A stretch of DNA of 35,979 nt from the NCBI GenBank assembly GCA_016189945.1, contig JACPRN010000155.1:1-35979 (forward strand), given 5' to 3'. Under the pieces are notes generated by a model. That model made no database searches and had not been told where the DNA came from. It saw only the letters and a program-made list of their open reading frames with translations. This stretch comes from Betaproteobacteria bacterium (GTDB lineage Bacteria > Pseudomonadota > Gammaproteobacteria > Burkholderiales > SG8-39). The position numbers were made by a program, and so were the translations under genes. Shown piece by piece: positions 1,498-31,197 of this stretch (the stretch's first letter is position 1; every line of letters begins with the position of its first letter).

Positions 1498-1576
1498 TGC
1501 GTCCTCGAAGTGAAGGAATGGCGCCATTATACCGGTTCGTGCGCCCGCCTCGTCGGGCGCAAACGCGCGGGGGCGG

Positions 1577-1789: not shown

Positions 1790-1848
1790 GGTCCCTCCAA
1801 GATATCCGACGAGCCGCAACCAGCGATGCTGGTCTTGCCTTTTATAAA

Positions 1849-1896: not shown

Positions 1897-1958
1897 CATA
1901 TTTGAAAAGCAAGTTCTCTCCGGCCCTGTCAACACCCGCCTGAAAAGCGGCCAATATC

Positions 1959-11284: not shown

Positions 11285-11306
11285 TGTGCACAACACGGAG
11301 ATCGAA

Positions 11307-11513: not shown

Positions 11514-11541
11514 GGAAGCAGTCCTGCAGCGCCCCGGCGAC

Positions 11542-12564: not shown

Positions 12565-13106
12565 CGCCGCGCTCTTCTCGCCTTGCGCCGGCGCCAGCGG
12601 ATCACGACGTAGGCGCGCCAGCCCGCCTGCACGCCCACCCAGCCCAGAGCGGCAAGGGTCAGCGCGAGCGCCACCAGCCCGAGCGCGAGCGGCTTGCCAA
12701 GCAAGATCAGCCAGCGCGCCAGCGCCTCGATCGATGCGCCGAACTGCGACCACTCGAACTCGGGCGCCTGGGTCATTTGACCGTTGCCGCCGGTGAGCAG
12801 CTTGCCGTATTCATAGGCGATCACGTAAAGGGGCCCGATGGTGAACGGGTTGGTGTAGAGCGTGGTGAAGAGCGCCACCGGCAGGTTCACCCGAAACGCG
12901 ACGGCGAGAACTGCGGCGGTGAGCATCTGGAACGGGCCCGGTATCAGCCCCGAGAACAATCCGATGGCCAGGCCCCCTGCGACCGAATCGCGGTTCAGGT
13001 GCCACAGATTGGGGTGATGCAGAAAGGTCCCGAAACGCGAGATGTGCCGGTGCTGCCTGATCGAGTCATGGCTGGGCAGAAAATTTCTCAAGAACTTGCG
13101 CGGCAT
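12561..13106 (-). CDS. DUF2062 membrane protein
   Basis: A 181-residue inner-membrane protein with the DUF2062 pattern: HPNLWHLNRDSVAGGLAIGLFSGLIPGPFQM, then FRVNLPVALFTTLYTNPFTIGPLYVIAYEYG, and a C-terminal pair of hydrophobic helices followed by the basic tail RWRRRKARRARR. The family function is unknown. The start MPRKFLRNFLPSHDS matches the usual N-terminus better than an upstream start 35 codons earlier. It is translationally coupled (ATGA) to the downstream K+ channel, suggesting a shared role at the membrane, and is divergent from comEC. Confidence 0.85.
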   Translation of the reverse strand: MPRKFLRNFLPSHDSIRQHRHISRFGTFLHHPNLWHLNRDSVAGGLAIGLFSGLIPGPFQMLTAAVLAVAFRVNLPVALFTTLYTNPFTIGPLYVIAYEYGKLLTGGNGQMTQAPEFEWSQFGASIEALARWLILLGKPLALGLVALALTLAALGWVGVQAGWRAYVVIRWRRRKARRARR

Positions 13107-15609: not shown

Positions 15610-16476
15610 ATGACCGCAGATCTTCATTTTCGGAGAAAGAGCTTGCAGTCCATCGGCGCGAGCGGACTGCACCGCATGGCCTACCTCGAATGGGGCGAGG
15701 AAGAAAATCCGCGCGTGCTCGTGTGCGTGCACGGCCTGACGCGCTGCGCGCGCGATTTTGACTTTCTCGCCCGGGCCTTGTGCGCGCATTACCGCGTTGT
15801 CTGTCCGGACGTGCCCGGGCGCGGGGATTCGGACTGGCTGCGCGATCCGAAGGAGTACGCGCTTCCGACGTACTTGAGCGGTATGGTGGCGCTCCTCGCC
15901 CGGCTCGATGTCGAGCGCGTGCACTGGCTCGGAACTTCGATGGGCGGGCTGATCGGCATGGCGCTTGCCTCACTGGAACAGACCCCCGTTGCGCGCCTGG
16001 TGCTGAACGATGTCGGCCCGGTGCTGACGGCGGCCTCGCTCGATCGCATTGGCGGCTACCTCGGAAGCGCGCCGGCGTTCTCGGGGATCGACGAGGCCGA
16101 GCGGTACGTGCGAGCGGTCGCCGCGCCTTTCGGGCCCCACAGCGACGCCGAGTGGCGCTTTCTCACCGAGCATGTCGTGCGGCAAGGGGCGGACGGCGCC
16201 TGGCGCATGAAATACGACCCGGCCATTGCGCAGGCCTTTGCCGCGCGCGAGCCCGAAAAGGACATCGAGCTCTGGGGCCAGTGGGACGCGGTTTCCTGTC
16301 CGACACTGGTGCTGCGCGGAGAACATTCGGACCTGCTCGCGCGCGAGACGGTGGAGGAGATGGCTCGCCGCGGCCCGCGCGCGAAAGTGGTGGAGATCGC
16401 GGGAATCGGCCATGCGCCCACGCTCATACACGCCGATCAGATTGCGCTGGTTAAGGAATTCTTTCTCGCCGGCTGA
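15610..16476 (+). CDS. alpha/beta hydrolase
   Basis: A 288-residue alpha/beta-hydrolase-fold enzyme. Visible features are the oxyanion-hole HG at 41-42 (VCVHGLTRCARDFD), the nucleophile elbow GTSMGG with S110, a likely acid D241 in RGEHSD, and the catalytic histidine H268 in IGHAPTL. The lid region (about 140-210) resembles esterase/lactonase relatives. The substrate cannot be assigned. It begins 19 bp after comEC and converges with the DUF2229 gene, leaving only 4 bp between the stops; this marks the left edge of the accessory region. Confidence 0.9.
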   Translation: MTADLHFRRKSLQSIGASGLHRMAYLEWGEEENPRVLVCVHGLTRCARDFDFLARALCAHYRVVCPDVPGRGDSDWLRDPKEYALPTYLSGMVALLARLDVERVHWLGTSMGGLIGMALASLEQTPVARLVLNDVGPVLTAASLDRIGGYLGSAPAFSGIDEAERYVRAVAAPFGPHSDAEWRFLTEHVVRQGADGAWRMKYDPAIAQAFAAREPEKDIELWGQWDAVSCPTLVLRGEHSDLLARETVEEMARRGPRAKVVEIAGIGHAPTLIHADQIALVKEFFLAG

Positions 16477-16480
16477 ACGT

Positions 16481-17764
16481 TCACGCCCCTTGCGTCGCAC
16501 GCCAGGCGCGCCGTATCGAATCGGGGTCTCTCGCCTCGCGTGGGGTTCCCGGCGCACTCACAGAGGCGCTCTCCCGCCGCGTATCCCGGATGAGAGGGCA
16601 GTCGGGCAAGCAAGCCGCTTTCTTTGCCTCGATGATCGCGCTCGAATGCTTCTCGAGGTAATAGGCGATCGTCTCGATCCGAATCTTCAGTGCGCCGGCC
16701 GGTTTGGTGGAATCGAGATCCTGGAACGAGAAAAAGAGCGTACCCGAACGCTCGACGATCTGTTGAACGGGCGTGTAGGTCGGTTGATCCATTCCGCACT
16801 CGTAGCTCGCGAGACGGATGACACCCGCGATCCAGGGCACACGGGCGGCAAATTTTGCTCCCCACAGGATTTCGTTGGTATTGGCGCTGTAGGACGAGGG
16901 CCACACGTCCGCGATGTCGAACGGCGAACGCACATGGCCGGCACGGAGGTCTTCGCCGAAGACCCATTGGAGCAAATCGGCGTCGGCCGGCAAATACTGG
17001 GCCCACAGCACCGGATAGCCGTAGGCCCGGAGTTCGACCTCGATCTCATGGCCAATGCCGGGATCCATGTGGTACGGCCTTGCCAGGACCATCAAACATG
17101 GCTTGTCCTCACGTGCGCAACGCTCCAGCACCTCCCGGCTCCGGCGCCTGACCCGCGCATTGAAAATTTCCAGCGCCGTGTAACCTTCACGCACGGCGCT
17201 CCTGGTCTCATCGAGCGTAAGTGCGGGAATAACGTTCTTCAGCCCCTGATAGAGCTGCTGCGGCACGATCGGCGGATCGGCCAGGGATACCAGCGGCGCA
17301 GCGTAACGGATGGCGTGCTCGGCGAACACATCTTTTTCCTTCAGGAAGCCGGCCTTGATGTTCTCCGGCGCGGCCATCACTCGCGGGCAGGCGAGCGATG
17401 CGGCGACGTGCCCGTTCAGGCACGAGGGCAGGGAATAGATCATGGGTGACAACAGCAAGTCGATCTTGCGGTGCTTCTCGCGCATGAGCAGCTCGCCGTA
17501 ATGGCCGGAGATGCATTTCACGGGATAGCAGCAGTCCACCGTGCCGCGGCCCTTGCCGAACTGGCGGGCCTGTTCCTCTGAAGTAGCGGAGGAAAAGGCA
17601 ATACGCCGAGGGTCAATGCCGAGCGCAGTGAGAAACCCCACCCAGAACTGGTGAGTGGACCACAGGTTCAGCACCCGTGGAATTCCGATCCGCAGCTCAG
17701 CTCTCGCTCTTGGCGCGGCGGAACGCGTCTTCGCGAACCATTTCTGCAACGTTGGGAAAGACAC
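16481..17764 (-). CDS. DUF2229 protein of an archerase (2-hydroxyacyl-CoA dehydratase-related) system
   Basis: A 427-residue cytoplasmic protein of the COG3580/DUF2229 group, which in many anaerobes is fused to a double activase. The hallmark N-terminus is IGIPRVLNLWSTHQFWVGFL; the cysteine cluster CCYPVKC (C78, C79, C84) and SLPSCLNG (C115) are likely iron-sulfur ligands. A Rossmann-like half follows (LMVLARPYHMDPGIGHEIE, then YECGMDQPTY). The GTG start at 17762-17764 overlaps the activase gene by 68 bp and is set by a perfect GGAGGAGA six bases upstream. It is the last gene of the sigma-54 operon. The exact reaction is unknown; the family pairs with ATP-driven electron activation. Confidence 0.85.
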   Translation of the reverse strand: MSFPTLQKWFAKTRSAAPRARAELRIGIPRVLNLWSTHQFWVGFLTALGIDPRRIAFSSATSEEQARQFGKGRGTVDCCYPVKCISGHYGELLMREKHRKIDLLLSPMIYSLPSCLNGHVAASLACPRVMAAPENIKAGFLKEKDVFAEHAIRYAAPLVSLADPPIVPQQLYQGLKNVIPALTLDETRSAVREGYTALEIFNARVRRRSREVLERCAREDKPCLMVLARPYHMDPGIGHEIEVELRAYGYPVLWAQYLPADADLLQWVFGEDLRAGHVRSPFDIADVWPSSYSANTNEILWGAKFAARVPWIAGVIRLASYECGMDQPTYTPVQQIVERSGTLFFSFQDLDSTKPAGALKIRIETIAYYLEKHSSAIIEAKKAACLPDCPLIRDTRRESASVSAPGTPREARDPDSIRRAWRATQGA

Positions 17765-19889
17765 GCTTGGTCTCCTCCAGTTTGGCCTTCACGACACGCA
17801 TCTCGTTCGCATCCTCGAGCAGTCCCTTGGGACATGAGTTGCCGCTGATCACGCGTTCCCACCCCTCGGCCACCGGCACCTTGCTCCAGGGGCGGCCTTT
17901 GGCGCCAGCGAGGCGGACGTCGATGAAGGTCCGCCGGCAGTTGACGGGACACCAGCGGCACGTGGTGTGTTCGCTGGTCGTGCTTTGATAGGCGAGCACT
18001 TCAACTTGATCGAAGCCGCGGAAGCGCGTGGGACTCGCGCCGTACGACCAGTTCAGGGCGCACAGCGCCGCCCCGATGGCGCCAGCTTCGCCGGGATGCG
18101 GATGAACCACGATCTCGGCATTGGGGACCTTGCTGGTGACGAAGTCGACCTGCGCCTTCACCACGGCTAGGTTGCGGTGGGTCCCGCCTTGCAGCACGAA
18201 CTTGCGCCCGGCGTTGGCGAGGTTTTGCAATTGCCCCGCGTACACCCAGACATTGAGCGGTAGGACGGCGGCGAGGGAGGCCATAATTTCCTCGGCCGAC
18301 CAACCCTTGCGCTGCTGATTGACGATGTCGGACTGAAGAAAGACACCGCAGCCCATCGCCAGCGTCGGCATGGCTTTCGCCCGGAACGCACGCTCGGCGT
18401 ACTGTTCGAGCGGGACATCATAGCGCTCGGCAACGGCTTGGAGAAATGCGCCGTTACCCGAAGAGCATTGCGAATTGAGACGGAAGTCGGACACGGTGCC
18501 CTGTCGCAGCAGCATGATCTTCACGTCGCACCCGCCCACGTCGCAGATCACGTCGGCGTCGGGAAAGAAGTGCAGGGCCGCGGTGGCATGCGCAACCGTC
18601 TCCACGATTCCGACGTCAGCGCCGATGATGTCTTTCAGCAAATCCTTGCCGTATCCGGTGATTGCCAGTGCCCCTATGCCGCCGTAGCCCGCAGCCCGGA
18701 CTTGGCGCAGGACGGCCTTGGCGTCCTCTATGGGGTTGCCCTCGGACATCACGTAACAGGAAAAGAGCAACTCGCTTCGTGCCGACATGACGACCGCCTT
18801 GGCCGTGGTGCTGCCGAAGTCGCACCCCACGAATACCGTCTCCGTACGCGCTGTCGTGCCCGGCGCAGAAGCCCTTGAGCTGCGGTCCTGGCGATTGCAC
18901 CGCCCGTTCGACGGTCCGTATTTCTTCAGGAAGATCGCCCGTTCTTCCTCACTCGCCAGGAGACCCTTGGCGCCTTGCTTGGCCTTCTGGGCGTGCTGGC
19001 CTTCGTCGATCCACCAGCGCAGCTTATCGCTTCCCCGGTACACTGCGATGTCCCGGCCTTCCCTTTCTCCGATTTGTGCGCACCCGAGGCAGGCAAAATA
19101 CAAGGCGTCGCCGGAAACGCGGACGAGAGTTTCCGGATCGGTGCCTTGCGGCAGCGGAACGGATCTCTCGATCCAAAGCTTGCGCAGATGGTGCTGCCAC
19201 GCCTGCTGCAAGCCCTCGAAGAACAGGTTGGGTCCGCCGAGGAGCAGTGCGCCAGGCAACGGCGTGTTTCCCTTGGTAAGGGTGGCGAGGTTCTGGTAGA
19301 CCACTGCCTCGTACAGGCTGGCGATGATCTCCTCCACCGGAACACCCGCTTTTACCAGAGTGTTCGCATCGGCTTCGGCAAAAATGCCGCACTTGGCGCT
19401 GATCTTGTGCAGGCTCCGGCCGCGGTATTCCATGCGCGCAAGCTCTTGCGTCGGGATGCCCAATTTGCGCGCTGTCTTCTCGATAAATGTCCCGGTCCCG
19501 CCGCTGCAGGCGGACTGCATGTAGACCTGTTTGGCGAGGCCCGTGCCGGCAGGGGTGAAAAACAAGGTCTTCATGTCTTCGCCCCCGATTTCCGACACGA
19601 ACCGGACTTCCGGGTGGATCTTCTCCACCGCGGCCGCAACGGCCACGACTTCCTGGATGAATTTGCCGCCCACCAGCGGCGGAAACCCGCCGCTGCCGGA
19701 TCCGGTTAAGAAGATCCGGTCGCGTTCCGGGAACACCCCGCACTCGGCCTCCATCCTCGCCAGGAAATCGTGCACCGTTTCTGCCTGCCGGGTGTTATGC
19801 CGCTGGTAATCGCGCCAGAGCGGCTTGCCATCTTCCACAACTACGGCCTTGACGGTGGTGGAGCCAATATCCATGCCGACGATCTTCAT
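17697..19889 (-). CDS. acyl-CoA dehydratase activase, two ASKHA domains plus Cys-rich tail
   Basis: A 730-residue protein of the BadF/BadG/BcrA/BcrD ATPase family. Activases of this type use ATP hydrolysis to push one low-potential electron from a shared [4Fe-4S] cluster into a partner enzyme. Domain 1 (1-285) starts GMDIGSTTVKAVVVED, with IGGEDMK (101-107), C128 (SACSGGTG) and C167 (AKCGIFAEAD). Domain 2 (about 352-610) starts GCDFGSTTAKAVVMS, with C475 (NSQCSSGNG) and C514 (MGCGVFLQSD). Its phosphate loop reads VGGCDVK (451-457), where Q or E is usual. A tail (640-690) adds CRWCPVNC and C686. The ATG overlaps the stop of the HgdB-like gene (ATGA), so expression should be coupled. Confidence 0.9.
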   Translation of the reverse strand: MKIVGMDIGSTTVKAVVVEDGKPLWRDYQRHNTRQAETVHDFLARMEAECGVFPERDRIFLTGSGSGGFPPLVGGKFIQEVVAVAAAVEKIHPEVRFVSEIGGEDMKTLFFTPAGTGLAKQVYMQSACSGGTGTFIEKTARKLGIPTQELARMEYRGRSLHKISAKCGIFAEADANTLVKAGVPVEEIIASLYEAVVYQNLATLTKGNTPLPGALLLGGPNLFFEGLQQAWQHHLRKLWIERSVPLPQGTDPETLVRVSGDALYFACLGCAQIGEREGRDIAVYRGSDKLRWWIDEGQHAQKAKQGAKGLLASEEERAIFLKKYGPSNGRCNRQDRSSRASAPGTTARTETVFVGCDFGSTTAKAVVMSARSELLFSCYVMSEGNPIEDAKAVLRQVRAAGYGGIGALAITGYGKDLLKDIIGADVGIVETVAHATAALHFFPDADVICDVGGCDVKIMLLRQGTVSDFRLNSQCSSGNGAFLQAVAERYDVPLEQYAERAFRAKAMPTLAMGCGVFLQSDIVNQQRKGWSAEEIMASLAAVLPLNVWVYAGQLQNLANAGRKFVLQGGTHRNLAVVKAQVDFVTSKVPNAEIVVHPHPGEAGAIGAALCALNWSYGASPTRFRGFDQVEVLAYQSTTSEHTTCRWCPVNCRRTFIDVRLAGAKGRPWSKVPVAEGWERVISGNSCPKGLLEDANEMRVVKAKLEETKRVFPNVAEMVREDAFRRAKSES
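17771..17778 (-). promoter_or_regulatory. ribosome binding site inside the activase gene
   Basis: GGAGGAGA on the minus strand, six bases before the GTG of the DUF2229 gene. It lies within the 3' coding end of the activase gene and fixes an otherwise ambiguous non-ATG start. Confidence 0.85.
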
Positions 19890-21448
19890 TGCCGTTTCCT
19901 GTTGGCAAGATGCAGCACGAGGTTTGCAGCGGTTCCCACAACGCCGCAACGCGGAATCCGGTACGTCGCGCGCTTCATCTGGGGCGAAGACTCGAGCAGT
20001 TCGCGCGCTTGCTCCGGCGAGAGCCGAGTGCGGTCCAAAACCTCCTCGTATTCCTGCTGTGCCTTGCGTTTGGCCTCGGTCAGTACCATCTGGCACCGGG
20101 ACAGTGCGTGGACCTCCGCATCGCCCTTGACCTCAAGCGGGGCGTAGAGGAGATCCGGATGCTTGCCGAGCACGGCAGCCATGGCGCCGATGCTCATCGA
20201 ATTGGGCATGCAGGAGTACGGCGAAAGCTCGCATGTCATGTGTGCCTTCTTGTGGTGATACGCCCAGAGCGCCTTCCCGATCAGCATGTCGCCTTCGCCA
20301 CCGTCCAACCGGCTGTGGTAGTAGGGCGCGGCGAGTTCGCGCAGCTCGTACTGATCGGGCATCTCGTGCGGCAGATTGCCGAGCGCCGTGCGCATCCGGT
20401 TATAGCTCCACCTGAGGAGCGACTGTCCGGTCTTGATGACGCCGAGCTTCAGACGGGCGCATCCGCCTACGCCGATATGGTCCTCGTAATTCTGACCGGC
20501 AAAGCGCAGTAGGTAGTCGAGCCAGATGGCGATTGCCGCAGGGTAGACTTCCGCGCCTTCGGACTCGAGCCAGCGGTGGATGTTGTAATTGGGCGCGCCC
20601 TCGACGGTCTGCAGGTAGAACTCGCCGGTGAGCTTCACCACCGGCTTGACCCGCAGCCGGTCCACCTCGATGTTGTGGAAGTTGCGAAACACCTCCCGCA
20701 AGGCTTTCACGAAGCGGCTGGTGACGAGGTACCAGAGCGGAGCACTTGTTTTCCTGCTGAGTGCAGGAGACGCGCGGAAGACCTCGTACAGGTAATCGAT
20801 GCTTTTCCGGGCGACCCGCTCGGTTTCTCCTGGGGTCACTTCGTACGGCCTGGTCTGATATTCCAGATCCTGCACGACGTCCGCAGCCAGGATGGCCCAG
20901 ATCGCACCCATGGTGAACGGAAGATTAAGCTCCAGCCCGCCGCCGTCGGCCGCGCCCTGATCGAGCCCGTTCTGCGCGAGCAGGAACATGCGGAACGACT
21001 CCATCCCGATGTTACGCATCGCCAGCTCGTAGCTTTGATGATATTGCCCGAAGCGACAAGCCCCGCAGGCTCCGGCGGTGACATACACGTATTTCTTCGC
21101 GACTTCCGCGGCGCTTGTTTGTCGCGCCTGCGAACGCAGAAAGTTCGCAATGTTCCCGACCGTGAAGCTCGTGGGGCAGCACTGACCGATGTCGGCCAGT
21201 TCGCGTCCCGTCATAAGGTCCTCCTTGGTCGGTGCGGACAGGACTTGGCTCCGGTAACCGAGGTTCTCCATCGCGCCCTGGATAAGCCGCTCGGCTCGCC
21301 AATGCAGACCGCCGAAGAGCACCGTCGAATGGTCGCGCTCGGATTTGGTAAACGGCCGGGGCCTGTAGGCGCGGTACGGTTTGTGGACTGCATGTTCCAC
21401 GTCTTGTTCCATTCCGGCCTGGTTGGGCGCCTCTGAGTAGGGCGTCAT
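19886..21448 (-). CDS. HgdB-like iron-sulfur subunit (COG3581 type) of an archerase system
   Basis: A 520-residue protein of the 2-hydroxyacyl-CoA dehydratase-related group that normally forms the C-terminal part of large fused activase/DUF2229 proteins. Likely cluster cysteines are C90 and C91 (GQCCPTSFTVGN), C128 and C131 (GACGACRFGQY), C330 (GVGGCARLKLG), C406 and C413 (CELSPYSCMPNSMS). No signal peptide or membrane segment is present. It directly follows the TRAP permease after 51 bp and is coupled to the activase gene. The ATG at 21448 is used; M13 (21412) is an alternative, and neither has a clear ribosome binding site. Substrate unknown: dehydration of a 2-hydroxyacyl-CoA or another difficult reduction are both possible. 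Confidence 0.8.
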   Translation of the reverse strand: MTPYSEAPNQAGMEQDVEHAVHKPYRAYRPRPFTKSERDHSTVLFGGLHWRAERLIQGAMENLGYRSQVLSAPTKEDLMTGRELADIGQCCPTSFTVGNIANFLRSQARQTSAAEVAKKYVYVTAGACGACRFGQYHQSYELAMRNIGMESFRMFLLAQNGLDQGAADGGGLELNLPFTMGAIWAILAADVVQDLEYQTRPYEVTPGETERVARKSIDYLYEVFRASPALSRKTSAPLWYLVTSRFVKALREVFRNFHNIEVDRLRVKPVVKLTGEFYLQTVEGAPNYNIHRWLESEGAEVYPAAIAIWLDYLLRFAGQNYEDHIGVGGCARLKLGVIKTGQSLLRWSYNRMRTALGNLPHEMPDQYELRELAAPYYHSRLDGGEGDMLIGKALWAYHHKKAHMTCELSPYSCMPNSMSIGAMAAVLGKHPDLLYAPLEVKGDAEVHALSRCQMVLTEAKRKAQQEYEEVLDRTRLSPEQARELLESSPQMKRATYRIPRCGVVGTAANLVLHLANRKRQ

Positions 21449-21499
21449 ATCAAGGGCGCACGCTGCGTTGCGAAGACAATGTCGTGGTCATGTGGGGCA

Positions 21500-23380
21500 T
21501 CAGCGCTGAATGGAAAGCAGCCCCGTGCTGAGCCAGGGCACGTAAGTGATGACAAGGACGCCAGCGAGCAGCGCCGTGAATAACGGTGCCACGGCCCGGC
21601 ACACCTCGGGAATCGGCCGGTCGAACCGGTAGGACGAGAAGAACAGGTTGAGGCCGATAGGGGGTGTCAGATACCCGAGTTCCATGTTGGCAAGAAAGAT
21701 CATCCCCAGGTGTACCGGGTGCACGCCAAAGGCGAGGCCCAGCGGCACGATCAGCGGAGTGATCACGACGATCGCGGAAAAGATGTCCATCACGCAACCG
21801 ACGGCGAGCAGGAAGATGTTCAGGGCCAGCAGGAAGGCCCACGGCGACTGTATGTGCTGCTTTACCCAGTCGACTGCATGCTCGGGAATCTGCGCGTCCA
21901 CCATGAAATTGGTCAACGCCAGCGCCACCCCGAGGATCAGCAAAATGCCTCCGACCAGCAACCCGCATTCGGTGATGATGCGCGGGATATCCGGATAGAA
22001 CCGCACTTCGCGATGGATCACCGTTGCCACGAATCCGGCATAAAGCGCGGTGGCCGCGGCCGCTTCGACCGGAGTGGCAAGACCGCCCAGCAGAATGGTC
22101 ATCGGGATCGCGGGCAAGGCGAGCTCCCATTTCGCCGCCCACAACGCGCGCGCGAGACGGGCCCGGTCGAATGGCGTGCGAGCCGGGTTGCCCGCCGGCC
22201 GCTGGCGCAAGCCCCAGCACAGCGCGATGCCGAGCATCAGCGCCGCCGGCATGAGGCCGCCCACGAACATCGACTCGATACTGGTCTTCGCAACGATGGC
22301 ATAGAGGATGAGCGGCAATGCGGGGAAGAGCAAGACCCCAGGCAGGCCGCCGCCGGTGATCAGCCCCAATGCGGTCCGTTCCCGGTACCCGGCAGCCGTC
22401 AACAGCGGCATGGCAAGACCGCCGAGCGCCAGAATCGTGACGCCGGATGCGCCGGTGAAGCTGGTGAAGAATGTGCAGACGAGCACCGTGACCATGGCGG
22501 CGCCGCCGCGAAACCGTCCGAAAAGCGAAGCGAACACTTCGATCAGGCGCCGCGGCGCGCCGCTTTCGGCGAGGAAATAGCCAGCGAGCGTGAACAGCGG
22601 AATCGCCGGCAGCGAAGGATTGGCGCTAAGGCTGTAGTGGTCCACAGCCGCCGAAGCGATCGGTACGCCGCTCCCCCACAACAGGAGCAGCGCCGCACCG
22701 CCGATTACGGCGAACAGCGGGGCGCCGAGCAGTGTCGCCACGAGCAGCACGACCAGTCCGGGTGCCACCAACTCGCGGGGTTCGAACGGGATGAGGACGA
22801 ACAGCGCAACCCATGCGGCCGCGAGCACGCCCGCCCATAGCCTGCCGGCAATCCCGTTTGCCGCGGACAGCAGGAGACGCAGCGCGATGATGCCGAACCC
22901 CAGGGGCATGAGTGACTCGACAATCCAGACCGGGATGCCGTGGGCGAGGATCCGGCCGGCAGCGTGCTCCGCTCGCACGAACTGCAGGCTGGCGATACAC
23001 AGGAGGGCGCTCACGGCCGCTGCCGCGACAAAGGCGCTGAACTTTGCCCACCGGCCGGCACGGCCATCGATAAGGGCAGCCGCCGAAAAACCGAGCAGCC
23101 GCGCCTCACGGGCGGCAACGGCGGCGCCGAGAATGCCCACCACGAGCGTCAAGTGCTGAACCAGGGAAGACGAGCCCTCGAAGCCGACGCCCGCGGCAGC
23201 GCGCAGCAGGATCTCGGCAAGCGGCAGCAGGACCAGCGCCGCGAACACAAGCGAGAGAAAAGTGTTCTCCGCCGCGACTGCGAGTTTCGCAACGTTGATG
23301 CGGCGCGCAGGCATGGGTGCCGCAAGGGCAGGGCGGGTTTCCGGCAAGGAGCAAGTCTCTTCCGATAATGCGTGCATCAT
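21500..23380 (-). CDS. TRAP transporter permease, DctQ-DctM fusion
   Basis: A 626-residue inner-membrane protein. Residues 1-190 form a DctQ-like four-helix unit (starting after the basic MPARRINVAKLAV). Residues about 195-626 are the DctM large subunit, with IPLFTLAGYFLAESG, TSFTGASGVTILALGG, GGGLPGVLLFPALPLILYA, the VMDIFSAIVVITPLIVPL segment and MELGYLTPPIGLNLFF. The DctM half carries the Na+-driven transport path, usually for carboxylates. Fused DctQM permeases commonly go with TatT-type auxiliary proteins. The ATG at 23378-23380 overlaps the DctP stop (ATGATG), so translation is coupled. Confidence 0.93.
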   Translation of the reverse strand: MMHALSEETCSLPETRPALAAPMPARRINVAKLAVAAENTFLSLVFAALVLLPLAEILLRAAAGVGFEGSSSLVQHLTLVVGILGAAVAAREARLLGFSAAALIDGRAGRWAKFSAFVAAAAVSALLCIASLQFVRAEHAAGRILAHGIPVWIVESLMPLGFGIIALRLLLSAANGIAGRLWAGVLAAAWVALFVLIPFEPRELVAPGLVVLLVATLLGAPLFAVIGGAALLLLWGSGVPIASAAVDHYSLSANPSLPAIPLFTLAGYFLAESGAPRRLIEVFASLFGRFRGGAAMVTVLVCTFFTSFTGASGVTILALGGLAMPLLTAAGYRERTALGLITGGGLPGVLLFPALPLILYAIVAKTSIESMFVGGLMPAALMLGIALCWGLRQRPAGNPARTPFDRARLARALWAAKWELALPAIPMTILLGGLATPVEAAAATALYAGFVATVIHREVRFYPDIPRIITECGLLVGGILLILGVALALTNFMVDAQIPEHAVDWVKQHIQSPWAFLLALNIFLLAVGCVMDIFSAIVVITPLIVPLGLAFGVHPVHLGMIFLANMELGYLTPPIGLNLFFSSYRFDRPIPEVCRAVAPLFTALLAGVLVITYVPWLSTGLLSIQR

Positions 23381-24405
23381 TTCTTCTCTCCCCGGTACTC
23401 CGCGAGCAGGGCTTCCACACGATCGAACATGTCCGCGGGCACCATGGTTCCGCGCACCCGCGGCCAGGTCGTGCGGGCAAGTTCGCGCCAGGCGCGCTCC
23501 ACTTCCGGCGTGGGCGCGAGCGCTTTCAGGCCCCGCTGCTCCATGGCACGTATGATCTCCTCGTCGCGCGTATTGCGGTGCGCGCGCAGCGCCTCACCGG
23601 CTTGCGCGGCGGCCTCGGCGAGCGCAGTGCGGCCCGCCGGGCTCAAAGCATCCCAGGCCTTCGCGCTCATCACCACGGCACCCACGATCGGCACCCAGTT
23701 GATGCGCAGCATATACGGCGCAGTGCGATCGAATTGCCCTACGAGGGCCCAGAGCGGCGCGGCCGGAACGGTGTCGATCATTCCCGTTTGCAGTGAGGGC
23801 AGGATATCGGTGAGTTCAAGCACCACCGGCCGGTAGCCGAGCGACTTCATCAGATCCACCTGCGGGTTGTCGCCGGCCCAGGCGAAGATCCTGCTCGCTC
23901 GGTACTGCTCGGGTGTGGTGAACGGCGACTTGGAGAAGAACTGCACCCAGCCGCCTTCTCCCCAGAACAGCACCACGAAGCCCTTGGCGCGCAGGCGCAG
24001 CTCGAGGTCGGGACGAAGCTTCTCGCGCACGTAATCGACCTCCTCCCAAGAACGGAACATGAGCGGAATCTTCTGCAGCGCCGACACCGATGGATCGATT
24101 TCGGACAGGCCGACAATGCTCACCATGGAGGCGCTCAATTGGCCGACGCGCATGCGGCGGATCGTGTCGGCTTCGGCACCCTGCGCGCCGTCGGTATAGA
24201 CGATGACGCGGGACTGGTTGCCTTGCGCGACCCGCCACTTCTCGCCCATGTCCTGGAGCACGCGGTGATAGATCGAGCCCTTGGGCGCGACGGTCGCGAT
24301 TTTCAATGTGAGCGCCTGATCGGCCGAAAGGGCAGGGCATGCGCCCAGCGCCAGCGCGAGCGCGGCGGCGCACCTGAGAAGCGTTGTGCGATGTTGGGTA
24401 GCCAT
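23377..24405 (-). CDS. TRAP transporter substrate-binding protein DctP
   Basis: A 342-residue periplasmic binding protein. After the signal peptide (MATQHRTTLLRCAAALALALG) a cleavage after ALS is likely; LGAC could also be read as a weak lipobox. The mature part has the family features LKIATVAPKGSIYHRVLQDMGEKW, VIVYTDGAQGAE, the IPLMFRSWEEVDYV segment and the ligand-region arginine in EQYRASRIFAW. The segment QTGMIDTVPAAPLWAL is followed by a C-terminal helix bundle. A second ATG two codons upstream (24411) is possible; the ATG at 24405 has better spacing to AAAGGGG. The protein belongs to the DctP subgroup paired with TatT. Confidence 0.93.
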   Translation of the reverse strand: MATQHRTTLLRCAAALALALGACPALSADQALTLKIATVAPKGSIYHRVLQDMGEKWRVAQGNQSRVIVYTDGAQGAEADTIRRMRVGQLSASMVSIVGLSEIDPSVSALQKIPLMFRSWEEVDYVREKLRPDLELRLRAKGFVVLFWGEGGWVQFFSKSPFTTPEQYRASRIFAWAGDNPQVDLMKSLGYRPVVLELTDILPSLQTGMIDTVPAAPLWALVGQFDRTAPYMLRINWVPIVGAVVMSAKAWDALSPAGRTALAEAAAQAGEALRAHRNTRDEEIIRAMEQRGLKALAPTPEVERAWRELARTTWPRVRGTMVPADMFDRVEALLAEYRGEKK

Positions 24406-24419
24406 GTGCATTTCCCCTT

Positions 24420-25544
24420 TCAATCGGCGAAGAATTTTTCGATGCGGCCCAGCAGCCAGCGCGCGCGGCGCTGCATCACCAGATTTACGAGCCGCCACTC
24501 GGGTTTCTTGGCGACGTCCAGTGCCAGCACGCCGCGCAGCAGCCGTTGGAACTCCGCGCGGTTGCGCTCCGCAATGCAAACTGCCTCAGCGAACGCCACA
24601 TACGGCGCCGCGTGCATGCCCTCGGTCAGATCCACGGCGCGTGCGAAATGTTTGCGCGCCCGGGCCGGCGCGCCGGCGCTCAGGCCGGCCCGGCTCATCT
24701 CGTAATTGATCATGAAGACGTGCAGACCGCCGCGGTCGAACGTTTCATCCAGGGCGAACGCCCGGCCCACGAGCGCTTCCACCGCCGGGAGTTCGGCGAC
24801 AAGGAACGGGTCGTCCTTCGACAACGAAATGGCAGCGGCCCACGCAACTCCCGTCCAGTACAAGAGCCCGACGTCTTCGCTGCCGGCTTTCGAGACGGCG
24901 TTCGCCGGATCGGTTTTCAACGCCTTCGTCACACCGGGAACTGCGACTTCGAGACCGTGCAGACCGTAATTGCGGGCGCGCAGGTAGAAGCGCCGCGCGC
25001 GTTCGCGCTGCTCATGCGCGGCCTTCAGATCCGTGTCCTCGAGCTCGTCGGCCTTCAGTTCCACATACGCGTAGGCGTACTGCACGAATCCCTGCGTTGC
25101 GGCGAGCAGCAGCCCGCGGTGATTGGGGCTTTCGGCCAGCACGCTCTCCATGAGCTTGAGGCTGAAGGGGGCGGCGGCGCCGACCAGTTCCGGGTCGTCA
25201 TCGGAGCCGAATCCGGAACCGCTTGCGGCGAGCGCGTCACCGACGCTGTTGATCGCGTAATTTCGCACTGAGCAGCCGCTCGCGAGCGCGGCGAGCACCA
25301 GCAGCACCAGCGCGCCGGAGCGCTTACAGACGGTGCTGCAGCGTGCAAGCCTCGGCCGCATTGCGCCCAGCGTGCAGCGCCGGTAAAGCCACAGCAGCGC
25401 AACCACCACGAACGAGCCTGGCAGGAGTAGCGCCAGCGCACATGCGCACGACTTTGCGAACGCTCGGGGCTGCGGCAGCAGGTCTTGCAGGCGGCGTGAC
25501 GATCGCCCATTCGCTTGGCGCAGGAATTGTTCAGTGGCATTCAT
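24420..25544 (-). CDS. TRAP transporter auxiliary protein TatT (TPR lipoprotein), with extra N-terminal membrane segment
   Basis: The body matches the TatT family: a trimeric tetratricopeptide-like helical protein that docks to the TRAP binding protein in the periplasm, described for Treponema Tp0956. Family features include SVRNYAINSVGDALA, FSLKLMESVLAESPNHRGLLL, ARRFYLRARNYGL, the KDDPFLVAELPAVEALV segment and FMINYEMSRAG. A lipobox LASGC puts the lipid-modified cysteine at C91. The ATG at 25542-25544 has a strong GGAGGA, giving 374 residues, but this adds about 60 residues with an additional hydrophobic helix (about 33-54) before the lipoprotein signal. A start at M62 (25361) would give a normal lipoprotein but lacks a ribosome binding site. 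It is the first gene of the sigma-54 operon. Confidence 0.85.
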   Translation of the reverse strand: MNATEQFLRQANGRSSRRLQDLLPQPRAFAKSCACALALLLPGSFVVVALLWLYRRCTLGAMRPRLARCSTVCKRSGALVLLVLAALASGCSVRNYAINSVGDALAASGSGFGSDDDPELVGAAAPFSLKLMESVLAESPNHRGLLLAATQGFVQYAYAYVELKADELEDTDLKAAHEQRERARRFYLRARNYGLHGLEVAVPGVTKALKTDPANAVSKAGSEDVGLLYWTGVAWAAAISLSKDDPFLVAELPAVEALVGRAFALDETFDRGGLHVFMINYEMSRAGLSAGAPARARKHFARAVDLTEGMHAAPYVAFAEAVCIAERNRAEFQRLLRGVLALDVAKKPEWRLVNLVMQRRARWLLGRIEKFFAD

Positions 25545-25552
25545 GAGCTTGG

Positions 25553-25558
25553 TCCTCC
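25553..25558 (-). promoter_or_regulatory. ribosome binding site of the TatT gene
   Basis: GGAGGA eight bases before the ATG at 25544. It supports translation of the long form that carries the extra membrane segment. Confidence 0.8.
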
Positions 25559-25623
25559 GCTTAAACCTTTGCCGTCCGAGTGCCTGTGCCTGACGGCCTC
25601 TCATCGCACCCAACTGACTGCTG

Positions 25624-25639
25624 TGCATCACTCGTGCCA
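25624..25639 (-). promoter_or_regulatory. sigma-54 promoter of the TRAP-archerase operon
   Basis: The minus strand reads TGGCACGAGTGATGCA. Against the sigma-54 consensus TGGCACG-N4-TTGC[A/T], only one defined base differs (A for T), and the GG-N10-GC spacing is exact. The transcript should start about 12 bases past the GC, near 25613, giving a 5' leader of about 70 nt before the TatT start. Confidence 0.88.
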
Positions 25640-25657
25640 CACACATGCCGGAAGTGC

Positions 25658-25670
25658 CAACTGGTTGTTT
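25658..25670 (-). promoter_or_regulatory. IHF-type site upstream of the TRAP-archerase promoter
   Basis: The minus strand reads AAACAACCAGTTG, one mismatch from the IHF consensus WATCAA-N4-TTR. The centre is about 26 bp upstream of the -24 GG, where IHF normally bends DNA between activator sites and sigma-54 polymerase. The second promoter (29547) has the same geometry. Confidence 0.65.
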
Positions 25671-25739
25671 ACACATGCTTAGTAAGTGTTTCTGGGCTGA
25701 CTGACACTCCACCAAGGTCAGGAGCTTAGGTGCTCGTCA

Positions 25740-25756
25740 TGTACTTATGCAGTACA
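25740..25756. promoter_or_regulatory. palindrome, candidate activator site
   Basis: TGTACT-TATGC-AGTACA is a perfect 6-bp inverted repeat with a 5-bp spacer, about 100 bp upstream of the -24 element of the sigma-54 promoter, a usual distance for an enhancer-type activator site. No clear second copy was found at the other sigma-54 promoter, so assignment is tentative. Confidence 0.35.
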
Positions 25757-25867
25757 AGGAATGCTCATCGAGGATGGCAAGAATCCGCCAAGCGCCGGGC
25801 GTGTCGAGGCGGGCGCGAGGTGGAACAACGCAATGCTCGAATCAAAGACCGACACGGCTTCAGCCGG

Positions 25868-27322
<1,455 letters not shown>

Positions 27323-27332
27323 GGACACTTGC

Positions 27333-28631
27333 TTAGTCAGCCGCTTGGGACGAGCGCACGCCGTCGCGCTCCCGCACCAATGACAACAGCAGCGCGCCGG
27401 CGATGAACAGCACCACGATCGCCAGAATAGCCAGCCGCGGGCTGCCGCTGAGTGCGCCGCCAACACCGATCAGCACTGGACCCAGCACTGCCGCGAACTT
27501 GCCGAGCATGTTGTAGAAACCGAAGAACTCGCCCGCCTGCCCGGCGGGAATGATGCGCGCATAGAACGAACGCGACAGCGATTGTACGCCGCCCTGCACC
27601 AGCCCGATCGCAACCGCGAGCACATAGAACTCCCATACCTCGGTCATAAAGTAGCTCCACAGCGTGGCCGCGAGGTATGCTGCAATGCCGGCGAATATCG
27701 CGGGCTTCGCGCCCAGCCGCTCGCCCGCGTATCCGAACGCAAGCGCTGCGGGAAAACCGACAAACTGGGTGATGAGCAACGCGACGATCAGGCTGTTCGC
27801 CTCGAAGCCGAGCGCCATGCCGTAATCGACCGCCATGCGCGCGATGGTATGCACACCGTCGATGTAGCACCAGTATGCGAGCAGGAATATCCACACGGGA
27901 CGCAACGCGCGCAGTTGGTGGAATGTCTCGGCAAGCTCACGCAGTCCTTCCCGCACGGCCGTCCAACCTGCGGCGGGTTGCCGGCTCGGTGTTTCTTTCA
28001 CGAACAGGAGCAGCGGGACGGTGAACACCGCCCACCACACGGCCACCAGCGCAAAAGAAACCCGCACCGCTTCCGCCGCGTCCGCGAGACCGAACTTCTG
28101 CGGCCACAGCGTCATCGCCACATTTGCGGCGAACAGCAATCCTCCCCCGAGATAGCCGAGGCTGAATCCCAGCGCGGAGGCGTAGTGCAGGCGTTCATCG
28201 TGCGCAACCTCGACGATCAAAGCATCGTAGAAGATATTGCCTGCAGAAAAGCCGATCGAGGCGACAACAAACAGCACAATCGCAAGCAGCCAGTCGCCGC
28301 GCGACACCAGCGGCAGCGCGCCGGTCATGACGATGGCGAGTGCGGTAAGCACCACGAGATGCCTCTTCTTCGCCGATCCGCAATCGGCGATTGCGCCGAG
28401 CACGGGGGAAAGCACCGCAACCACGATGCTGGCGGTGGAATTGGCGATACCGAGTCGGAACGTGCTCACCGTAGGGTCGTCGCCGGCGCTCCAGTACTGC
28501 TTGAGGAACAGCGGAAAGAACGCCGAGATCACGGTCACCGCAAACCCCGAGTTCGCCCAGTCGTAAAGCGCCCACGAGACCACTGCCTTCCGATCCAGGA
28601 GGGCTCCGGTGCCTGGGCGGGACAGCTTCAT
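27333..28631 (-). CDS. UMF1-type MFS transporter
   Basis: A 432-residue, about 12-helix inner-membrane transporter of the COG2270/ATG22-like group of the major facilitator superfamily. Characteristic pieces are [55 protein letters not shown], the long [15 protein letters not shown] segment, [15 protein letters not shown], and [33 protein letters not shown]. Substrates of this group are mostly unknown. The ATG overlaps the stop of the ceramidase-like gene (ATGA); the amidase follows after 10 bp. In this operon it may export or import a product or substrate of the two hydrolases. Confidence 0.93.
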
Positions 28632-29494
28632 TTCGGACTGCGCAGGCGCAACATTCCCAACAGCCAGTAAACGGCAATCGCAGCGATCAGGTGCTTGAGC
28701 GTGTGGCCGCTCACGAATTGGCCCAGCGCGTATATTTGGGCGTCAAGAATCTCCGCCACCTTGGCTGCTCCGTAGGTTGCCGCCACACCGAAGATTTTTG
28801 CGCCGTGCGTGTATCGTGACGGGAAGACCATGGCGATGGCGAGGATGGCCGCGATCGAGCCATACTGTACGACGGCGTAGGGCAGTATGTTCTCCGCTCC
28901 GCCCAGCTGGCTCCAGCGCCAAACCACAACACTACCGACCCCGATCAACAGCAGCGGCAAGAGCAGGCGCAATCCCGCTCTCGCGTTGATCCGATCGACA
29001 ACGGTGGCTGACAGCAAGGACATGAAACCGATGGCCATGGGCAGCCTGTCCCAGACCAGGCGCGCGCTGTCGGGGGCGAGATGGTAATACGCCGATCCCA
29101 GCGACGTCAGAGCGATGCCAAGAAAGCACAGCAGGTATGGCCACCGTTCTATCGGGTCGGCGAAAGCATCGCGTTGCCGCGGCTCGCCGCGCCAGACGAA
29201 GTGGAGTCCCCAGGTGCCGATCAGCAGAAGCGGGACGTTGGAGGCGACGTTGAAGAAATTGGCGATGCCGAGAAATGTTCGGTCGTCGGCGAGTTGGCGG
29301 AATACTTGCGGCTCCGGCAGCGGCGGCAACATCGCCATCGCGGCGAGTGCGGCCACCAGCAGCAGCGCCATGGTCCCGGTACGAACGCGAGGCGACCACC
29401 AACGACGTTCAGCAAACGCCTGCGTGGCTTGTGCTGACGACCGGTATTGTTCGCGGTTGACCGCAGAAGATTCGAATGCCGGGCCTTCGTTCAC
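28628..29494 (-). CDS. CREST-family ceramidase-like membrane hydrolase
   Basis: A 288-residue integral membrane protein with about seven helices. It carries the full CREST zinc-hydrolase motif set: S134 and H138 in SLGSAYYHLAPDSARLVWD, D149 in the same segment, and H264 and H268 in SGHTLKHLI. The spacings (S-x3-H, H to D 11 residues, H-x3-H) are the same as those of the human alkaline ceramidase ACER3 zinc site (S77, H81, D92, H217, H221). It probably hydrolyses an amide bond in a lipid at the inner membrane; the actual substrate is not known. GTG at 29492-29494 is chosen because AAGGAG lies six bases upstream. Earlier starts at 29563 and 29554 fall inside the sigma-54 promoter and would not be transcribed. 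Confidence 0.85.
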   Translation of the reverse strand: MNEGPAFESSAVNREQYRSSAQATQAFAERRWWSPRVRTGTMALLLVAALAAMAMLPPLPEPQVFRQLADDRTFLGIANFFNVASNVPLLLIGTWGLHFVWRGEPRQRDAFADPIERWPYLLCFLGIALTSLGSAYYHLAPDSARLVWDRLPMAIGFMSLLSATVVDRINARAGLRLLLPLLLIGVGSVVVWRWSQLGGAENILPYAVVQYGSIAAILAIAMVFPSRYTHGAKIFGVAATYGAAKVAEILDAQIYALGQFVSGHTLKHLIAAIAVYWLLGMLRLRSPK

Positions 29495-29500
29495 GAATTT

Positions 29501-29506
29501 CTCCTT
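29501..29506 (-). promoter_or_regulatory. ribosome binding site of the ceramidase-like gene
   Basis: AAGGAG on the minus strand, six bases before the GTG at 29494. Together with the sigma-54 promoter upstream, it decides this start over longer alternatives. Confidence 0.8.
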
Positions 29507-29546
29507 CGCTCTTGATCGATCGCTGCAAGGGTACCGATCATAGATC

Positions 29547-29562
29547 AGCACCATCTGTGCCA
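29547..29562 (-). promoter_or_regulatory. sigma-54 promoter of the ceramidase-MFS-amidase operon
   Basis: The minus strand reads TGGCACAGATGGTGCT, close to TGGCACG-N4-TTGC[A/T], with exact GG-N10-GC spacing and two mismatches outside the invariant GG and GC. The transcript should start near 29537, about 42 nt before the GTG at 29494. Confidence 0.8.
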
Positions 29563-29579
29563 ACGGTGCCAGCTTGAGT

Positions 29580-29592
29580 TAACCAGTTGATT
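29580..29592 (-). promoter_or_regulatory. IHF site upstream of the ceramidase operon promoter
   Basis: The minus strand reads AATCAACTGGTTA, a perfect match to WATCAA-N4-TTR. Its centre is about 25 bp upstream of the -24 GG, nearly the same distance as at the other sigma-54 promoter. Confidence 0.7.
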
Positions 29593-29694
29593 GTTGGTCG
29601 ATCTGTTCCTTCCAATTAGCCTCCTAATGTCAAATGTCTGGCATTTCTAGAACACGTGACGTACATTACTTGCACATCGATAAGGGAGGGCACC

Positions 29695-31197
29695 ATGGCT
29701 GGTGGGCGCCTGGGAGCGGCCGAACGGGAATTCTTCGCCGCGCTCGACTGCGTTGTGTACGGAAACCCATTCAGCGACGAGCGCGCACAAGTGATCCAGC
29801 GACTCGTCCCCGGCTTGACGAGCATCGATCTTGTCCGGGACCCAGAGGCGCTGGCGCGGCTCGTCGAACCGCGACTGCGCCCGTTTTCGGACGCCGCCGG
29901 GCTGACACGTCTGAGCGCGGGGGATCGCCGGCTGGTGGAGGTCGGATTCCTGTACGTCTGCTACCACCGGCACATACTGCCCATCGACGAGCTGATCGAG
30001 CGCCAGGCCGCGCACCGCGACGCGCCGTCGGCGGCTCAGGTTGCAACGTCGGTGATCGGCGATCTGGTCGGCTGCGGATTCGCCGAACACGCGGCGGCGC
30101 GCTACCTTGCCTTCTTCTTCCAGTTGCGTCGCGCGTTCCATTTCATCCTGCGCTCGCTCGCGGGCGATTGCGAATCCATGCGCCGGCTCCGCCGTGCGCT
30201 GTGGGACAACGTCTTCACTCACGACATGCGTGGATACGAAGCCGGGCTATGGAACCGGATGGAAGACTTCTCGACGCTGCTTCTCGGCGAGACCGGCACC
30301 GGCAAGGGCTCCGCCGCCGCTGCGATCGGGCGTTCGGCCTTCATTCCGTACGATCCGATCAAGAGGCAGTTCGCGGCCGACTTCACCGAGAGCTTCATGT
30401 TAATCAACCTTTCGCAGTTCCCCGAGACGCTGATCGAGTCGGAGCTGTTCGGCCATAGGAAAGGCGCCTTTACGGGCGCGATCGAACACCATGAGGGCGT
30501 GTTCGAACGCTGCAACACGCACGGCGCGCTGTTCCTGGACGAAATCGGGGAGGTCTCGATTCCGGTCCAGATCAAGCTGCTGCAGGTCCTGCAGGAGCGA
30601 ACCTTCACCCCGCTGGGCAGCCACGAGAAGAAGCGGTTCGCGGGCCGGGTGATCGCGGCGACCAACCGGCCGCTTGACGAGCTGCGCAGCGAGCGCCGGT
30701 TTCGTGACGATTTCTACTATCGTCTATGTTCGGACGTGATTCTGGTCCCGACGCTGCGACAGCGAATCGAGGAGTCGCCGCGAGAGTTCGAGGATCTGGT
30801 GCGGCTGCTCGTCGCGCGAATCGCCGGAGAGGAAAACGCCCGGCTGTCCGCGCTCGTCATGGAGGCGACCGAGCGCGATCTGCCGCGCGACTACCGCTGG
30901 CCGGGAAACGTGCGGGAGCTTGAACAGGCGGTGCGCCGCATCCTGCTCACCGGCCACTACTATGGTGAGCGGCCGAGAGCCCCGACTGACGAGATCGAAC
31001 GGCTTACCGAACGGATGCGGGCTGGAACACTCGCCGCGGACGAATTGCTGCGTGGCTATTTGACGCTGTTGCATCGGCGCTTCGGCACATACGAAGAAGT
31101 CGGCCGCAGGGCCGGAGTGGACCGCAGGACCGCCAGAAAATACCTTGCAACGTCTGACAACTCAGGACCGCCTCGGGCGAAGGCGCGTAATTATTGA
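29695..31197 (+). CDS. sigma-54-dependent transcriptional activator
   Basis: A 500-residue enhancer-binding protein. The central AAA+ domain (about 170-420) has Walker A GETGTGKG (198-205), the sigma-54-contacting GAFTGA loop (257-262), Walker B ALFLDE (278-283), arginine-finger region RFRDDFYYRL (336-344) and RWPGNVRELEQ (401-411). A helix-turn-helix near 464-483 (GTYEEVGRRAGVDRRTARKYL) should bind the enhancer. The N-terminal 170 residues match no sensory domain I recognise (not PAS, GAF, receiver or V4R by eye) and probably sense the inducer. After Walker A, Gly replaces the usual Glu. The ATG at 29695 has GGGAGGG five bases upstream. It is divergent from the ceramidase operon and is the likely activator of both sigma-54 promoters. 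Confidence 0.92.
   Translation: MAGGRLGAAEREFFAALDCVVYGNPFSDERAQVIQRLVPGLTSIDLVRDPEALARLVEPRLRPFSDAAGLTRLSAGDRRLVEVGFLYVCYHRHILPIDELIERQAAHRDAPSAAQVATSVIGDLVGCGFAEHAAARYLAFFFQLRRAFHFILRSLAGDCESMRRLRRALWDNVFTHDMRGYEAGLWNRMEDFSTLLLGETGTGKGSAAAAIGRSAFIPYDPIKRQFAADFTESFMLINLSQFPETLIESELFGHRKGAFTGAIEHHEGVFERCNTHGALFLDEIGEVSIPVQIKLLQVLQERTFTPLGSHEKKRFAGRVIAATNRPLDELRSERRFRDDFYYRLCSDVILVPTLRQRIEESPREFEDLVRLLVARIAGEENARLSALVMEATERDLPRDYRWPGNVRELEQAVRRILLTGHYYGERPRAPTDEIERLTERMRAGTLAADELLRGYLTLLHRRFGTYEEVGRRAGVDRRTARKYLATSDNSGPPRAKARNY

Follow-up and report, generated by a model that had tools for sequence, protein, structure and literature searches.

Bacterial ether lipids are the basis of plasmalogens and of the branched tetraethers used as climate proxies. 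Two described enzymes stand closest to the system presented here: PlsA, reported to form vinyl ethers, and Ger, reported to form alkyl ethers, both from phospholipid esters, with the presence of two activase domains tied to Ger (PMC13274423, PMC11150832). In these proteins the activase, DUF2229 and HgdB-like regions follow one another in a single chain. A homologue from T. maritima has been treated as well (PMC8788747), PlsAR homologues were proposed for the ether lipids of the acidobacterium Solibacter usitatus (PMC10087280), and it is reported that PlsA and Ger homologues are not distinguishable by sequence and that producers outside the known groups are sought (PMC11868695, PMC13274423). 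Here we describe an operon in a stretch of 35,979 nucleotides from a betaproteobacterium (GenBank assembly GCA_016189945.1, contig JACPRN010000155.1; hereafter the window), in which three genes related to PlsA and Ger follow the genes of a tripartite ATP-independent periplasmic (TRAP) transporter behind a candidate sigma-54 promoter. We give an even chance to the reading that this operon combines a transporter for hydrophobic ligands with a three-gene relative of PlsA and Ger that would reduce a lipid ester to an ether.

Other described systems resemble parts of the operon. DCCP, which is reported to carry a double cubane cluster, consists of one activase and one catalytic chain. Class I benzoyl-CoA reductases (BzdNO, MbdON) have a two-subunit reductase with the fold of the 2-hydroxyacyl-CoA dehydratases and benzoyl-CoA reductases (HAD/BCR) and two different activase halves, present in MbdON as two chains; BzdN is reported to bind an [8Fe-9S] cluster via six cysteines and BzdO a [4Fe-4S] cluster via three (PMC11971306). 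As for the transporter, the TatT-associated TRAP (TPAT) system of Treponema pallidum (TatT/TatP/TatQM) likewise brings together TatT, a DctP protein and a fused DctQM in one operon. Uptake of hydrophobic molecules has been proposed for such systems, a linear hydrophobic molecule having been seen in the TatT pore (PMC5812351), and BstC, of the same family, is reported to bind sterols (PMC10942540).

The six genes form one run on the minus strand, from 25544 to 16481. At its head, tatT (24420..25544) encodes a lipoprotein of tetratricopeptide repeat type, as in TPAT systems (Pfam TAtT, 1.4e-82), with its ATG at 25544, 79 bp downstream of the sigma-54 site; dctP (23377..24405; Pfam DctP, 2.5e-31) encodes a TRAP solute-binding protein, and dctQM (21500..23380; Pfam DctM, 1.1e-67, and DctQ, 1.8e-10) a fusion of the small and large permease subunits. 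There follow the genes for an HgdB-like subunit (19886..21448), for a double activase (17697..19889), in which Pfam BcrAD_BadFG matches two stretches (7.6e-67), and for a DUF2229 subunit (16481..~17719, the start being approximate; Pfam DUF2229, 2.1e-38). Gaps of 14 and 51 bp, the latter being the largest, are accompanied by two 4-bp overlaps, and the DUF2229 gene overlaps the activase gene; from this spacing we infer a single transcript. Gene coordinates and Pfam matches agree with the tightly spaced six-gene run described in an initial annotation, which had been made from the letters of the DNA. Pfam named five of the six proteins, and no family matched the HgdB-like protein at 0.01; moreover, its annotation gave no ring-cleavage, CoA-ligase or beta-oxidation gene among the six, and no ligase or transferase was present among the annotated genes of the window. 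The tatT product carries an N-terminal extension of about 60 residues (25272-25544), with a second hydrophobic stretch ahead of the lipobox, which is not found in the corresponding locus, L015, of the relative G271 (here and below, L and G numbers designate the loci and genomes compared).

Between them, the last three genes encode all domains of the Ger type, divided over three proteins, with two BcrAD_BadFG stretches as in validated Ger. When fused chains were examined, the activase and DUF2229 proteins matched all 13, and the three window proteins were collinear on 11 of them, the frames of the remaining two (L157, L158) ending ahead of the HgdB-like part; in three others (L150-L152) there is a single activase region. 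The layout matched places the activase at the N-terminus, DUF2229 in the middle and the HgdB-like region at the C-terminal end. In a Listeria chain annotated as '2-hydroxyacyl-CoA dehydratase', for instance, the activase aligns with residues 14-655 (5e-86), DUF2229 with 679-1021 (2e-23) and the HgdB-like protein with 983-1473 (8e-24). Orthologues of plsA and plsR have been reported from Listeria (PMC9702350), and the aligned gene would be the plsA orthologue in question. Both activase regions are present in this chain too, although it is reported for plasmalogens, so that their number does not decide between an alkyl and a vinyl ether. The statement of the initial annotation that no described pathway has this gene set must accordingly be revised for the reductase half, which is a split relative of enzymes that convert a phospholipid ester, and not a CoA ester, to a vinyl or alkyl ether. 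The lack of a CoA ligase, noted there, is not puzzling, since PlsA and Ger act on phospholipid esters.

Nevertheless, the triad is not simply Ger cut up. In the tree, a single branch with a support of 100 divides the 38 split rows from the 8 fused ones; the tree is unrooted and was built by a quick method, its long branches were flagged by the program, and the direction of derivation is not given by it. The branch that separates the two forms is long, and identity across it is only about 19-27%, so that the substrate may have changed. The gene order also differs: the split genes run HgdB-like, activase, DUF2229, and not in the order of the fused regions. Part of the cysteine pattern is shared. 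C64, C111 and C308 of the DUF2229 subunit are kept in all 45 split and 13/13 fused rows, and the cysteine pairs 128/167 and 475/514 of the double activase are common to the split and 8/8 fused rows. A further C-terminal CxxCxxxC...C of the activase (residues 644-686), invariant in 45 split and 8 fused rows, is a possible extra metal site. In the HgdB-like subunit, Cys 90, 128, 131, 406, 413 and 452 are invariant in 60/60 split rows; among the eight fused rows three of these are found in all, one in seven, one in four and one in none, each fused protein retaining four or five of the six, and in 6/8 fused rows another cysteine, absent from split rows, stands at the column of the HgdB-like residue L313. 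A clean cysteine contrast between the two forms was therefore rejected. By tree and alignment, the split triad appears as a distinct group.

Predicted folds place the two reductase subunits among the HAD, BCR and DCCP proteins. The HgdB-like model (mean predicted local distance difference test, pLDDT, 84; predicted template-modeling score, pTM, 0.86) had DCCP as its top Foldseek match (E 6.5e-5); in VIA-align, eight HAD/BCR/DCCP rows reached Z 8.6-9.8 with root-mean-square deviations (rmsd) of 4.8-5.3 over 270-295 aligned residues (3o3m_D: Z 9.8, rmsd 5.0, 288 aligned), two further family rows Z 6.2 and 5.6, against 5.4 for the first unrelated row. The DUF2229 model (pLDDT 80, pTM 0.80) matched HadC by Foldseek (E 8.5e-5), and in VIA-align ten family rows gave Z 8.7-12.7 (3o3n_B: Z 12.7, rmsd 4.5, 271 aligned), the first unrelated row being at 8.4. 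Foldseek TM-scores of the family rows are modest for both models, 0.29-0.48. As modeled, the two subunits appear to be related to each other, like the paired subunits of HAD and BCR enzymes. The earlier assignment to the ATP-driven, archerase-type reductases is supported.

These folds raise the question of whether the triad could be a CoA-ester enzyme, that is, an acyl-CoA dehydratase or reductase whose ligase is encoded elsewhere. The structural matches include HadC and BzdNO, the activase half matches HAD and BCR activators by sequence, and a candidate acyl-CoA synthetase cluster, read by eye, lies near the triad in several loci. Against this, neither the HgdB-like protein nor its profiles credibly matched solved HAD, BCR or DCCP chains by sequence, DUF2229 profiles matched no solved chain or only BzdN at E 1.1, and the three proteins align over their whole length with PlsA/Ger-type chains; we consider a CoA-ester enzyme improbable. 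The filing of the HgdB-like protein under HgdB by sequence was rejected: there is neither a Pfam match nor a credible solved relative, and only the predicted fold agrees. Compared with class I benzoyl-CoA reductases, the window also differs in that the activase halves are fused and CoA pathway genes are absent from the operon. Six conserved cysteines in one subunit and three in the other do recall BzdN and BzdO. The spacings of the split HgdB-like cysteines differ from those of BzdN, and profile searches made for mapping them onto DCCP or BzdN produced no usable alignment; a double cubane is possible in the split group.

Turning to the other half of the operon, the closest solved relatives of the window DctP are Tp33 and TatP(T) of Treponema pallidum. 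Most TRAP binding proteins are reported to hold the ligand carboxylate via an arginine, 3% being without it and having most often phenylalanine in its place, with alanine in Tp0957 (PMC4646407). At the column aligned to that arginine, equated with Arg-147 of SiaP by reading of the alignment, the window DctP has Phe, and all 21 TatT-associated DctPs of the set have Phe or Trp, which differs from the alanine of T. pallidum. A simple carboxylate ligand is therefore unlikely. With TatT encoded beside DctP and DctQM, the window transporter is, judged from its sequence, a TPAT of the hydrophobic-ligand type, as the initial annotation had proposed. In contrast with the T. pallidum system, it is linked to a reductase triad.

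The transporter also opens a different reading, in which the triad would reduce an imported hydrophobic compound, whether aromatic, hydrocarbon-derived or amide-containing, at an early step of its degradation, the likeness to PlsA and Ger reflecting ancestry only. Sigma-54 control, common for catabolic pathways, would suit such a role, as would the six-plus-three cysteine pattern. In free-living proteobacteria TPAT systems are reported to occur mostly in hydrocarbon degraders (PMC5812351). The host, however, already has genes for benzoyl-CoA reductase. Its genome (3.5 Mb, 80% complete, the window being contig C72) contains the activase BzdQ of a bzd-type benzoyl-CoA reductase, above the curated cut-off (L166 3576-4505), and a second set of four genes matching the BcrC, B, A and D models below cut-off (L165 4598-9185). 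Moreover, no ring-cleavage, CoA-ligase or beta-oxidation gene is among the six, and across phyla the triads are mostly without a transporter and have in Rokubacteria a desaturase-like neighbor, as detailed below. Altogether, we hold a catabolic role to be doubtful. The same genome has one DUF2229 gene, rpoN and two COX1 matches; given the latter, the host can very likely respire oxygen, and we take it to be probably a facultative anaerobe in which ATP-driven electron transfer of this type is already in use. An archerase in a betaproteobacterium, which had seemed surprising, is less so in such a host.

How firmly the transporter and the triad belong together was addressed through their relatives. 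The search for HgdB-like relatives covered 300 genomes of the host's order, and in a scan with one genome per species the best 80 of 174 relatives were retained; neighbors were analyzed in 83 loci with a codon-position gene caller, and since some loci are short, counts refer to those where the neighboring gene is present. Complete in-line sets of the six genes occur in the window, in two betaproteobacterial loci and in one gammaproteobacterial locus (L018, L020, L030), and G271 has the six in the same order on two contigs, cut inside the HgdB-like gene by the contig ends. Both halves thus co-occur in other genomes, the outcome that the initial annotation had proposed to look for. Three of the four split-triad genomes of the order are among the 21/300 with TatT at E below 1e-30 (hypergeometric 0.001), an overlap to which we give no weight, the genomes being one family that includes the window itself. 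The claim of a dedicated system was not supported as worded: the transporter is in line in only 3/55 scanned loci with at least 4.3 kb upstream (window and G271 excluded), and 18/21 TatT genomes of the order are without a split triad. In L027 the TPAT genes lie about 7 kb away on the opposite strand; in G010 the triad and TatT sit on separate contigs, and the DctP is more distant (31%); in G030 no match to TatT accompanies the triad; and L017, the nearest relative by sequence (80% over 1224 columns), has no TRAP match within 10 kb upstream. An obligate transporter-reductase system was rejected on these grounds. The four TRAP-linked rows and L017 form one cluster in the tree, which indicates that the link is optional and either arose or was retained within a single group. 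In L022 (9574-9759) and L031 (936-1175), short fragments of DctQM precede the triad, likely remnants of a transporter since lost.

Such a facultative linkage, together with the DctQM pieces, would also fit a DCCP-like reductase acting on a small molecule or in redox stress, next to which the transporter would lie through operon shuffling only, and DCCP is indeed the top structural match of the HgdB-like model. The conservation of the six-gene order in the window, L018, L020, L030 and, interrupted only by contig ends, G271 speaks against mere shuffling, and the window trio, with its DUF2229 subunit and double activase, is unlike the two chains of DCCP; we regard this explanation as highly improbable. 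Of the import-and-reduce system for one compound that had been envisaged, there remain the co-occurrence of both halves and the possible reduction of an imported compound.

Regulation offers a further line of comparison. The putative sigma-54 promoter (-24/-12) of the tatT operon, TGGCACGAGTGATGCA, at 25624..25639 on the minus strand, has no mismatch to TGGCAC-N6-TGCW. Eight sites with at most one mismatch are found in the window against 4.4 expected, a number reached by 5 of 100 shuffles, and two of them are exact; the second exact site (29547..29562, minus strand) lies about 50 bp before a ceramidase-like gene. Between 16300 and 30000 no sigma-70-like site was found. Divergent from the run headed by that gene is the gene of a sigma-54 activator, or bacterial enhancer-binding protein (29656..31197, plus strand; Pfam Sigma54_activat, 7.4e-44), the probable regulator. 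At E 1e-120, with five candidates scored per genome, this activator is found in 3/300 genomes of the order, namely the host, G271 and G143. In G271 an activator with 71% identity is directly divergent from tatT, with a one-mismatch sigma-54 site between them (L015). In G143, where neither TatT nor a triad match was found, an amidase gene adjoins the activator, and a relative of the window's major facilitator superfamily (MFS) transporter (64% identity) lies about 4.5 kb off; the 19.9 kb of this locus (L173) contain a single sigma-54 match, an exact one, situated in the divergent spacer ahead of a Kelch/Big_5 gene (736 aa, 10501-12768) that stands here in place of tatT. By number these sites are not significant, at least one match with at most one mismatch being present in 118 (L015) and 171 (L173) of 200 shuffles; they count because they are placed beside the activator. 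Since the activator is present and conserved in two related genera, and sites lie beside its orthologues in two relatives, the window promoter is probably more than a chance match, and with rpoN in the genome the sigma-54 promoter initially proposed gains in credibility. The presence of the activator beside an amidase and near an MFS relative in G143 would also agree with the catabolic role considered above.

Comparison supports sigma-54 control only in the window, G271 and G143. When L018, L020, L022, L027, L030 and L031 were scanned, no clear site appeared before tatT. A regulator of about 1000 aa with AAA and BTAD domains is encoded near TatT-type transporter genes, with or without a triad, in L018, L027, L030, L134 and L137, three of the five loci having been annotated for it, and loci without a sigma-54 site may use this regulator or something else. 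A palindrome, TGTACT-N5-AGTACA (25740-25756), about 100 bp upstream of the sigma-54 site, is a possible activator site; a shared upstream activator motif was rejected, the comparison having given only short common words and one palindrome.

Taken together, TatT and DctP would carry a hydrophobic substrate or precursor across the periplasm to DctQM. Inside, the double activase would hydrolyze ATP and pass low-potential electrons via its presumed [4Fe-4S] cluster to the HgdB-like/DUF2229 pair, which would act on an acyl ester of a (glycero)lipid that is not activated and reduce its carbonyl, an alkyl or vinyl ether being the result; the activator would switch the operon on. The transporter and the reductase would then handle a common molecule. 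Gene neighborhoods offer some agreement with a lipid substrate. Among the 60 loci with an upstream gene on the same strand, annotated through one member per cluster (L042 for the one concerned here), an acyl-acyl carrier protein-desaturase-like gene stands directly upstream of the triad in 13, overlapping it in seven (the 13 are L028, L036-L038, L041-L043, L045, L046, L048, L054, L055 and L063). A TetR gene occupies that place in 8/60 and an MFS gene in 6/60, and TetR is reported beside the pls genes in E. faecalis (PMC9702350). A glycerophosphodiester phosphodiesterase cluster, annotated through its L018 member, immediately follows on the downstream side in L018 and L014, whereas in L039 a small open reading frame comes in between.

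Several considerations weigh against this reading. TRAP systems import, and phospholipid substrates are made inside the cell. Many triads have no lipid-type gene adjoining, and the desaturase-like neighbors, all in Rokubacteria records, may represent one event. The long branch and low identity between split and fused forms, the partly different set of HgdB-like cysteines in the fused proteins and the two activase regions of the Listeria plasmalogen chain have been mentioned, as has the rarity of the in-line transporter. Within the operon, a terminator-like site (21535-21518) stands at the end of dctQM, directly before the HgdB-like gene; 16 such sites were found in 16300-30000 against 10.5 expected by chance. 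Finally, the rest of the probable regulon, with its amidase and ceramidase-like genes, would suit an amide no less than a glycerol ester.

The genes of this possible regulon lie next to the operon on the minus strand. The ceramidase-like membrane protein (28628..29494; Pfam Ceramidase, 1.2e-8 and 6.2e-9, just above cut-off) is encoded by the first gene of a neighboring probable operon, followed by an ATG22-like MFS transporter (27333..28631; Pfam ATG22, 1.1e-60) and an amidase-signature hydrolase (25868..27466, the start being approximate; Pfam Amidase, 4e-99). Their own exact sigma-54 site and the activator beside the amidase/MFS relative in G143 suggest that the three belong to the same regulon as the operon. 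ATG22-like relatives with about 30% identity lie directly beside tatT-dctP-dctQM in L137 and L139. The ceramidase-like gene was absent from G271, G010 and G030, and relatives with 53% identity exist on other contigs of the TPAT genomes G118 and G157.

As regards its distribution, HgdB-like relatives were found in eight of the 300 genomes, in the split form in four (window, G010, G030, G271) and within a long fused frame in the other four, and DUF2229 is rare, being present in 4/398 genomes of a phylum-wide sample. The genes for the HgdB-like, activase and DUF2229 proteins follow one another in this order in 52/53 loci with enough downstream sequence, the exception being L056, where no DUF2229 match was found. 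According to record titles, hosts of split triads include Betaproteobacteria, Gammaproteobacteria, Alphaproteobacteria, Rokubacteria, Acidobacteria, Aquificota, a spirochaete and a planctomycete, with Serpentinimonas barnesii H1, Caldovatus sediminis, Falsiroseomonas bella and Actibacterium pelagium as named strains; several of these hosts are, we presume from their names, aerobes. Two split-triad contigs (L026, L039) come from metagenome bins labeled Bordetella parapertussis, a possible binning or naming error.

The kind of reductase and the kind of transporter were already known; the split group and its sigma-54-controlled union with a TPAT transporter were not found in the literature searched, the main Ger paper being outside that search, and no paper on a TRAP transporter together with plasmalogen, ether lipid, TatT or glycerol ester reductase appeared among the matches listed. 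One could go further and imagine the split group as a second kind of lipid-ester reductase, with a double-cubane [8Fe-9S] subunit for electron storage and a [4Fe-4S] catalytic subunit, as in class I benzoyl-CoA reductase, yet acting on lipid esters that are not activated, spread through lineages with aerobic members, in which enzymes of this sort would be unexpected, and coupled in some Pseudomonadota to a sigma-54-controlled importer that would turn scavenged lipids into ether lipids, a proposal that as a whole we deem unlikely. Because named strains carry it, the three-gene group of Pseudomonadota, Rokubacteria, Acidobacteria and Aquificota allows a direct test for new ether-lipid producers, and TatT-type transporters would gain a metabolic partner through it.

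At the edge of the window, prfB and recJ are present (396-3602). In G271, prfB is also near the operon (L015 1837-2580), and in L030 genes from the prfB and recJ clusters follow it (16480-20856), which perhaps marks an old shared chromosomal place.

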